31,580 nucleotides of DNA from a virus: the IMG/VR virus record IMGVR_UViG_3300020119_000409, positions 1 to 31,580 of that record. One strand, given 5' to 3'. Below the pieces are notes generated by a model that saw nothing but the letters and a program-made list of their open reading frames with translations, made no database searches and was not told where the DNA came from. Made by a program: the position numbers and the translations under genes. Each line of letters begins with the position of its first letter. Position 1 is the first letter of the stretch. Shown here piece by piece: positions 3,830 to 5,561 of the stretch.

Positions 3830-3963
3830 CTCATCCGATTATCATCTTCGAACTCCGCCGCAAATGGCACCAGCTGCGCCGCTTTCATATCGCCAGCTCT
3901 GTGCTGGTGGACTACCGCATATTGAAGAACTACGCCGCCCGTTTACTGAAGGAAAAGAAATGA
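3826..3963 (+). CDS. ylcG: YlcG family small protein
   Basis: A 45-residue basic protein with the signature LRRKWHQLRRF, then SSVLVDYRILKNYAARLL, which matches the YlcG family found just upstream of Q in lambdoid prophages such as DLP12. Function is unknown. Both ends overlap neighbouring genes by ATGA (3826-3829 and 3960-3963), so it is translated within a coupled ref-ylcG-Q unit. ATG 3826 is preferred over upstream in-frame codons because of this coupling and the length of known YlcG proteins. Confidence 0.85.
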   Translation: MTHPIIIFELRRKWHQLRRFHIASSVLVDYRILKNYAARLLKEKK

Positions 3964-4712
3964 AACTGGAAGCCATCGTTAAATATTTCTCCCCAAAATC
4001 CATGACGCCCGGCGCGGTTCCCTGCGGTATGACGGCTGACACCCTGACCATCACTGATGTAATGGCTTCACTTGGCATGGTCGCTGCGCAATCAGCGATC
4101 GGCATTGAGCTCTATCTGGCAAAGGCGGGCGTTCTGCCGCCGGATAGCATCACGAACTACATCGAGCAACTGGCGACTGAGCGCAGCAAGAAAAACCGTG
4201 CACTGCAAAAGATGGGAACGCACCGCCGCCGCACATTCCTGCGCACCCTGGCGGAATACGTGTTCCGTGATTACTCGCTCAGCGCCGCCAGCACAGCGAA
4301 ATGCGATTGCTGCAGCGGTACCGGATTTATTGACGCTGAGGTGTTCACGATGAAGGCCTGGCGCGTGCGTGATACCTGGCTCCCGCAGGAGCAAGACAGG
4401 GAGCAGATCCGCGTTATATGCAAACCCTGCAGCGGGAAGGGCGCTATTAAGAATGAATGCCGCTGCCGTGGCCGCGGTGAGGTGCTCGATAAAGAGAAAA
4501 CAGATCTGCAGGGTGTGCCGGTGTATTCGCAGTGCAAACGCTGCGCCGGGCGCGGATACCCACGATTAAAGGACACGGAGATATTCAAGGCGCTCGGCAT
4601 TCCAGAAACAACATGGCGGCGCAACTACAAATTATTCTTCGATAGGCTGGTGGAGCATTGTCACATGGAGGAAGCCAGCGCAGAAAATGCCCTTGGCCGT
4701 GTGACGCATTGA
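3960..4712 (+). CDS. Q: Late antitermination protein Q (phage 82 type)
   Basis: The 250-residue product begins MKLEAIVKYFSPKS, the characteristic start of the phage-82-type Q family. Its C-terminal half contains DnaJ-like zinc-finger clusters CDCCSGTG (115-122), CKPCSGKG (154-161), CRC (167-169) and CKRCAGRG (192-199). Q binds DNA at the late promoter, joins RNA polymerase paused shortly after initiation and makes it ignore terminators. The start at 3960 (ATGA with ylcG) is chosen over in-frame upstream codons. A promoter begins at the base after its stop and a terminator lies 60 bp further, which is the expected target arrangement. Confidence 0.92.
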   Translation: MKLEAIVKYFSPKSMTPGAVPCGMTADTLTITDVMASLGMVAAQSAIGIELYLAKAGVLPPDSITNYIEQLATERSKKNRALQKMGTHRRRTFLRTLAEYVFRDYSLSAASTAKCDCCSGTGFIDAEVFTMKAWRVRDTWLPQEQDREQIRVICKPCSGKGAIKNECRCRGRGEVLDKEKTDLQGVPVYSQCKRCAGRGYPRLKDTEIFKALGIPETTWRRNYKLFFDRLVEHCHMEEASAENALGRVTH

Positions 4713-4742
4713 TTGACAGAAATCAGCATCCGGGATTATATT
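4713..4742 (+). promoter_or_regulatory. Late promoter pR'
   Basis: Perfect -35 TTGACA (4713-4718), 18-bp spacer, -10 TATATT (4737-4742). It starts immediately after the Q stop codon, the position of pR' in lambdoid phages. It should drive the whole late operon once Q is present. A 7-bp hairpin (ACGCCAG/CTGGCGT) follows at about 4750-4769 within the initially transcribed region. Confidence 0.88.
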
Positions 4743-4801
4743 CGCCGCACGCCAGCAAAATCTGGCGTCGGGATTGGCGTCCTGGTATCAGTAAAGCGCA
4801 T

Positions 4802-4823
4802 AACCGCGCTCAGCGGTTTTTTT
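4802..4823 (+). terminator. Promoter-proximal late terminator tR'
   Basis: Stem AACCGC (4802-4807) with GCGGTT (4813-4818), loop GCTCA, then an uninterrupted run of seven T (4817-4823). Lying about 60 bp after the -10, it should stop late transcription when Q is absent. Confidence 0.9.
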
Positions 4824-4853
4824 ATGCTTTAAGCACAGCTACATCCGAATAAT

Positions 4854-4975
4854 GGTGGGGCGTGCAGGGGCGGAGAAATCCGCGCCGGGTCTTTACTGCC
4901 GGTTACGCCAACCCTGTACGTCTCACCACCTCCTGATTGGCGTCAGCGGTGGTGATAATCCTCTACAGTAAAGGG
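4854..4975 (+). ncRNA. Structured leader RNA with possible pseudoknot on rha RBS
   Basis: The + transcript can form a 16-bp helix P1 (4854-4869 with 4912-4927, 13 Watson-Crick and 3 G-U pairs). Inside it is a 5-bp hairpin P2 with a GAAA tetraloop (4870-4883) and a hairpin P3 (4884-4888 with 4899-4903). The P3 loop CTTTACTG (4891-4898) is perfectly complementary to CAGTAAAG (4966-4973), which overlaps the Shine-Dalgarno of rha. A further hairpin, CACCACC (4924-4930) with GGTGGTG (4948-4954), shares four bases with P1. The three G-U pairs would be mismatches on the other strand, which favours function as + RNA. It lies after the late terminator, so it is made only with antitermination. I do not recognise it as a named RNA family. 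Confidence 0.65.
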
Positions 4976-4982
4976 CTATCCC

Positions 4983-5561
4983 ATGACCACCTTAATTTGT
5001 TCTGCTACCCCACACGTTGCTATCCGCGCAAATCGCGTAGTCACCGATTCTATTTCTGTCGCTGAATTTTTCGAAAAGCGGCACGATAATGTTATGGGTA
5101 AAATTCGCGCTGTAATGGCCGAATGCGATCCCTCCTGGCGTCTCCTTAATTTTACGGAGACGTCCTATCAGCGCGAAAATCCCAACGGCGGACCTGGAAT
5201 CTCCACTCCAATGATCGAACTTACCCGCGATGCGTTCGTACTGATCGCTATGGGGTTTACTGGCAAAAAGGCGCTTCAGTGGAAAATTCGTTACATCGAA
5301 GCATTTAACGAAATGGAGGCTGAGCTGCTTCGCCGATCAGTGCCGACCTACCCACCGTTCTCAGCCGACCACGCCAACCGCACCGAATTAATCTACTACC
5401 ATGACTTTAAGCCCATCTTCTGCCGTGTACTGCGCTCTGATGAAATAGTGGCAACACCGGAATCGATAAAGGAATGGATGGAGATGCGCGGGCTGATATT
5501 TTTCACACGTGAAGAACTAAAGAACATGACCTACGGGCAGTGGCTTGTGCTGGTGGAGTAG
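4983..5561 (+). CDS. rha: Rha family phage regulatory protein
   Basis: The 192-residue protein carries the Rha domain at about residues 18-115: VVTDSISVAEFFEKRHDNV at the start, then MIELTRDAFVLIAMGFTGKK and an IRYIEAFNEME helix. Rha proteins are DNA-binding-like phage regulators; in phage phi80 Rha interferes with infection of IHF-deficient hosts. The C-terminal 75 residues (with YYHDFKPIFCRVLRSDE) are less familiar and may be an antirepressor-type C-terminal module. The start is ATG 4983 with AAGGG at 4971-4975. That ribosome-binding site can be paired by the leader RNA upstream, suggesting translational control. Confidence 0.85.
   Translation: MTTLICSATPHVAIRANRVVTDSISVAEFFEKRHDNVMGKIRAVMAECDPSWRLLNFTETSYQRENPNGGPGISTPMIELTRDAFVLIAMGFTGKKALQWKIRYIEAFNEMEAELLRRSVPTYPPFSADHANRTELIYYHDFKPIFCRVLRSDEIVATPESIKEWMEMRGLIFFTREELKNMTYGQWLVLVE

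Follow-up and report, generated by a model that had tools for sequence, protein, structure and literature searches.

The folded RNA leader of rha in this phage belongs to the C4 antisense RNAs, an already described family of phage switches, known first from phage P1, that cover the ribosome site of an antirepressor gene, here rha. The DNA examined here, referred to as the window, is the 31,580-nt stretch from positions 1 to 31,580 of the IMG/VR virus record IMGVR_UViG_3300020119_000409. Whereas the initial annotation had recognised no known family in this leader, the Rfam C4 model RF01695 matches it at 70.4 bits against a cut-off of 45. The features of the locus, with the evidence for each, are as follows.

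3960..4712, plus strand: antQ-type antitermination protein Q gene (Pfam Antiterm PF03589, 5.5e-41), adjoining isrK as in Gifsy-1
4713..4742, plus strand: sigma-70-like promoter TTGACA-18-TATATT for isrK/C4 (sequence; identical promoter in Gifsy-1, L202)
4749..4823, plus strand: isrK sRNA, overlapping c4-a1b1, with a second, upstream set of C4 target sites (RF01394, 70.9 bits, cut-off 50)
4774..4780, plus strand: b1, TTGGCGT, complement of b' (sequence; duplex -10.3 kcal/mol)
4789..4796, plus strand: a1, CAGTAAAG, complement of the C4 loop a' (sequence; covariation)
4802..4825, plus strand: isrK intrinsic terminator, with proposed read-through into a C4 and rha mRNA (sequence)
4848..4933, plus strand: C4 antisense RNA (RF01695, 70.4 bits, E 5.6e-12, cut-off 45)
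4852..4971, plus strand: small ORF of 39 codons through C4, positioned as orf45 of Gifsy-1 (sequence; comparison of C4 loci)
4853..4869, plus strand: 5' arm of the main helix P1, partner 4912-4928 (folding; alignment)
4870..4883, plus strand: hairpin 1, loop GAAA (folding; alignment)
4884..4903, plus strand: hairpin 2, which displays a'; loop GTCTTTACTG (folding; alignment)
4891..4898, plus strand: a' antisense loop, CTTTACTG (sequence; covariation with a2 and a1)
4905..4911, plus strand: b' single strand, ACGCCAA (sequence; two alleles, each with corresponding b1 and b2)
4912..4928, plus strand: 3' arm of the main helix P1 (folding; alignment)
4924..4954, plus strand: conserved competing hairpin with b2, TTGGCGT (4937-4943), in its loop (alignment)
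4966..4973, plus strand: a2, CAGTAAAG, overlapping the rha Shine-Dalgarno sequence (sequence; covariation)
4983..5561, plus strand: rha (Phage_pRha), the putative regulated gene (PF09669, 4.5e-26)

Much of the architecture proposed in the initial annotation was borne out by sequence and folding. The 16-bp helix with three G-U pairs is formed by GGTGGGGCGTGCAGGG (4854-4869) and CCCTGTACGTCTCACC (4912-4927) and is extended to 17 pairs by U4853-A4928; the GAAA-capped hairpin and the second hairpin are both present; and the alternative hairpin described as competing with the main helix (CACCACC, 4924-4930, with GGTGGTG, 4948-4954) would claim main-helix bases 4924-4928. The minimum free energy is -61 kcal/mol, compared with -45.6 +/- 3.65 for shuffled sequences (z -4.2). 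As had also been claimed, the loop of the second hairpin is fully complementary to the rha Shine-Dalgarno region: a' (CTTTACTG) pairs without mismatch to a2 (CAGTAAAG) across the Shine-Dalgarno sequence AAAGGG (4970-4975), upstream of the ATG at 4983, and the chance of such an 8-nt loop match within about 45 nt before a start codon is about 0.2% by our own arithmetic. The single loop-to-ribosome-site pseudoknot of that account was right as to this contact, but it overlooked a second one, in which b' (ACGCCAA, 4905-4911) is complementary to b2 (TTGGCGT, 4937-4943). Both target sequences are repeated upstream inside isrK, as b1 (4774-4780) and a1 (4789-4796). The window thus holds the C4 family features of a' and b' facing a2 and b2 at the following gene's ribosome site together with an upstream a1/b1 copy, and the further feature, control of an antirepressor-type gene, is suggested by the position of rha and by the homology of its predicted product, which matches Phage_pRha and a PHROG anti-repressor.

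The upstream part of the locus is an element shared by two Rfam families, isrK (RF01394) and c4-a1b1 (RF03163), at 4736-4823, as is also seen in L202 and L208; the c4-a1b1 model itself scores 45.9 bits at 4736-4788, just under its cut-off of 46.7. A promoter and a terminator flank isrK in the same arrangement as in Gifsy-1. Since this sigma-70-type promoter (TTGACA-18-TATATT, 4713-4742) lies directly before isrK, transcription of isrK and C4 need not depend on antitermination, contrary to the earlier view that the leader lies after the late terminator and is made only with antitermination, although the neighbouring AntQ may affect read-through. Further upstream, at 858-2405, the window contains a gene for a type I restriction N-6 DNA methylase (HsdM-like).

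Comparison across loci shows that the fold and both contacts are maintained. A pattern search of IMG/VR DNA gave 66 C4 loci including the window, with 30 distinct loops, and 65 C4 sequences were aligned. In this alignment none of the 17 main-helix pairs is lost in more than one sequence, and most of them vary with compensatory changes on both sides, as do those of hairpin 1. The competing hairpin retains six of its seven pairs in 63 or more of the 65 rows and the innermost (4930-4948) in 48. The longest complement between a loop and its own ribosome-site region averages 8.5 nt over the 30 loops, against 4.1 nt for swapped loops and a highest mean of 5.1 nt among 300 swaps, and the same holds for the upstream a1 (6.9 nt own, 4.8 swapped, highest swap 5.3). 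Duplex energies follow suit (-12.85 kcal/mol for cognate loops and targets vs -6.64 when swapped), and as controls the cognate loops reach 4.3 nt against coding sequence and 4.6 nt as direct repeats. The loop-swap controls carry no phylogeny model; because the distinct loops are many, falling into 21 clusters when up to two mismatches are allowed, inheritance alone is an unlikely cause of the loop-target match. The b' strand occurs as two alleles, ACGCCAA and TTTCCAC (L203, L204 and L207 vs the rest), and the b1 and b2 of each locus correspond to its allele. Both contacts covary with both copies of the target. The initial annotation had named loss of the P1 pairs or of the loop-ribosome-site match in homologous leaders as evidence that would count against it; on inspection, pairs and complementarity are both preserved. 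The small ORF running through C4 was considered as the conserved feature and rejected, as its frame and end vary between loci: of 63 scored loci, 29 have the ORF entering the target in frame, and at the others its end points differ. Among 48 genes located 3' of C4, 16 encode Rha, and the ORF6N, Bro-N and P22_AR families also occur; isrK-C4 precedes Rha in ST64B, mEp460 and E. coli prophages.

Taken as a whole, we consider it highly probable that a C4 RNA, probably released by processing of the isrK read-through transcript, pairs with b2 and a2 and blocks the translation of rha. The transcript would begin at the promoter at 4713-4742, yield isrK and partly pass the terminator into C4 and rha; read-through is the expected source of C4, as this promoter and the terminator at 4802-4818 frame isrK. 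Once processed out of the read-through transcript, the folded C4 would display two antisense stretches, a' in the loop of hairpin 2 and b' in the junction strand, which are predicted to pair with a2 and b2 ahead of rha. Since a2 covers the Shine-Dalgarno sequence, rha would remain untranslated while C4 is present. The b1 and a1 sites of isrK may in turn bind C4, and would then either relieve repression by acting as a decoy or offer C4 a place from which to act on read-through. Rha is a predicted antirepressor-type regulator, and the C4 module would thus help to hold lysogeny, if Rha has this function in the present phage. Accordingly placed in a known antisense switch, rha comes with exact pairing sites that can be mutated.

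The P1 system, RF01695 with c4-a1b1 (RF03163) in P1 and P7, has the same fold and the same order of promoter, b1, a1, C4 (a', b'), b2, a2 and target gene. We located P1 c4 at 48337-48422 of NC_005856. Its pairings (a' CACTAAC with GTTAGTG, b' CTGTCAA with TTGACAG) differ in sequence from those of the window, its targets are the icd/ant genes rather than rha, and the window isrK, unlike its P1 counterpart, directly follows the Q gene. The isrK/STnc1160/anrP locus of Gifsy-1 resembles the window in carrying antQ, isrK, C4 (RF01695, 69 bits) and then an antirepressor-like gene. Its b1 and b' are identical to those of the window, whereas loop and Shine-Dalgarno sequences differ, and the anrP product has an ORF6N domain where the window encodes Rha, a comparison of Rha with AnrP showing no sequence relationship. 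The CI RNA (seqA-seqC) of phage P4, named as an analogue in PMC4825925, is likewise an antisense RNA with one target upstream and one downstream; it is described as acting via transcription termination and is likened to C4 by description.

Three other readings of the leader have to be weighed against a separate C4 RNA. A purely cis-acting leader, in which isrK and C4 are parts of one mRNA fold (b1 with b'), rha is silent through this fold or through coupling to the small ORF at 4852-4971, and free isrK RNA opens the fold, is unlikely in our judgement, even though it is the published model for Gifsy-1, supported there by native gels and compensatory mutants (PMC4825925), and although b1 and b' of the window are the same and its small ORF ends within a2. 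This reading leaves unexplained why the a' loop tracks the Shine-Dalgarno sequence (a2) so closely, the small ORF is inconstant (in frame into the target at 29 of 63 loci), and the c4 RNA of P1 is described as acting in trans (PMC8546580). In Gifsy-1, anrP translation of 4 units rose to 926 with C159U alone and to 484 with C162U alone, and came down to 327 and 224 units when these b' changes were paired with matching b1 changes, which the authors attributed to cis structure and coupling to orf45 (PMC4825925); compensation is partial, as the double mutants stay well above wild type (224-327 vs 4). On a Gifsy-1 numbering that begins at L202:1547 and places A107 at the orf45 start codon, b1 contains G28 and G31 and b' contains C159 and C162, so that by our numbering the published G28A/G31A and C162U/C159U changes are b1:b' mutants. 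In L202 (1547-1790), orf45 has its start at the 5' boundary of C4 and continues through this RNA, and orf45 mutants are thus also C4 mutants. The IsrK mutants of Gifsy-1 can be reread in terms of C4 and then count in favour of the C4 model, a reading that is offered here and not by PMC4825925, the text of which mentions neither 'phage P1' nor 'C4 RNA'. STnc1160, directly 3' of IsrK, is apparently processed from the read-through transcript (PMC4825925), and both RNAs are highly expressed in Salmonella under all conditions tested (PMC7067206). However, constitutive co-expression of STnc1160 made IsrK toxicity stronger, not weaker (PMC4825925), which fits poorly with a simple trans repressor.

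The intramolecular pseudoknot of the initial annotation, in which a' pairs with the Shine-Dalgarno sequence of its own transcript and no processing takes place, seems to us quite improbable. It accords with the exact complementarity on one strand and with the conserved competing hairpin, but the upstream a1/b1 copies, for which it has no need, stay in step with the loop, and the P1 c4 RNA, besides being described as acting in trans (PMC8546580), has a precursor that is given in the literature as a substrate of RNase P. The proposal of a riboswitch or riboregulator held insofar as the leader is a folded regulatory RNA with a competing helix and a loop that pairs with the rha ribosome site; it did not hold for the riboswitch. 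A compact junction fold with a competing helix would suit a ligand-binding riboswitch, yet the most exposed elements are freely varying pairing sequences that are matched elsewhere, and no riboswitch family was matched when Rfam covariance models were run against the window RNA. We rejected this reading, to which we assign very little probability, as Rfam places the RNA in a known antisense family.

A separate C4 RNA acting on rha thus being the preferred reading, the same design seems to extend to a second family. Instead of C4, sRNA-Xcc1 (RF02221) lies ahead of the closest Rha relative that we found (L002, 51% identity) and of those of L003 and L005, and at all three loci 7 nt of its second-hairpin loop are perfectly complementary to the rha Shine-Dalgarno sequence. 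This orphan family has been linked to virulence regulators and integrons and discussed as a virulence-linked trans-acting sRNA; it has been treated as a possible virulence or host-targeting RNA, with its regulatory role upstream of symE left open (PMC12444791, PMC12189769). Like C4, it has a main helix, two hairpins, an a' loop antisense to the Shine-Dalgarno sequence, a b' strand matched downstream, and an upstream target copy followed by a terminator. Its consensus, AATACAA..CCCGAAAGGG, is different, the window shows no RF02221 match up to E 1 over 4600-5100, and the L005 RNA, the one locus tried, gives no match to the C4 model even at E 10; we thus claim a likeness of design and not common descent.

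Pattern scans of viral contigs and genomes yielded 155 sRNA-Xcc1 loci with 122 distinct loops, and 16 of 18 sampled loci passed the RF02221 cut-off. Complementarity of the loop to the downstream region averages 6.34 nt (swapped 4.26 +/- 0.08, highest of 1000 swaps 4.57), with 90 loops reaching 6 nt where 11 are expected (highest 24), and at loci with an assigned start codon the complementary stretch usually ends 7-11 nt ahead of it. The upstream site (6.59 nt own, 4.56 swapped, highest 4.88) and b' (4.83 own, 3.05 swapped, highest 3.53) behave alike. In two multi-copy Xanthomonas genomes the match of a loop to its own upstream site is 6-8 nt and to the others mostly 4-6 nt, with one cross-match of 7 nt, a comparison that is only indicative because some automated loop calls were shifted into the stem. 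The 88 genes identified 3' of sRNA-Xcc1 include Rha (15), Bro-N (15), ORF6N (10), KilA-N (7), AntA (6), P22_AR_N (5) and SymE (3).

sRNA-Xcc1 is thus very likely a C4-type self-targeting antisense RNA, the second-hairpin loop and junction strand of which pair with the Shine-Dalgarno region of the next gene, of an antirepressor family or symE, and with an isrK-like leader upstream. On this view a single control module, widespread in proteobacteria, would exist in two forms, C4 and sRNA-Xcc1, which either branched from one another or were invented twice. This provides a concrete hypothesis for the function of sRNA-Xcc1, and no paper in the open-licence literature combines 'sRNA-Xcc1' and 'antirepressor'. 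The two RNAs have one set of antirepressor gene families in common as downstream neighbours, with a private pairing code at each locus. Both sites are present at 106 of the 155 sRNA-Xcc1 loci and the upstream site only at 26, the latter including L378, L351, L348, L360, L402, L409, L424 and L428, mainly from Xanthomonadaceae. At these upstream-only loci the loop complement lies 93-100 nt before, in the leader, with none at the next gene, which suggests control of terminator read-through.

One contig (L174, 843-1672) carries an isrK-C4 and an sRNA-Xcc1 module in tandem, each before its own gene. The SymE_toxin domain was found in 3 of the 88 proteins encoded downstream of sRNA-Xcc1, and in L404 (1862-2209) and L427 sRNA-Xcc1 stands before a short SymE-like gene with a match between loop and Shine-Dalgarno sequence; symE with sRNA-Xcc1 is reported as the most widespread integron cassette of Xanthomonas (PMC12444791). 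The isrK-C4 region of the window has stops in all three frames. In L203 (1149-1436), L206 (1180-1464), L207 (1149-1436) and L209 (1209-1433), Phage_ASH (PF10554) covers isrK-C4 in frame, and proteins annotated as 'ash family protein', as well as long Rha N-termini, may be translations of the isrK-C4 RNA.
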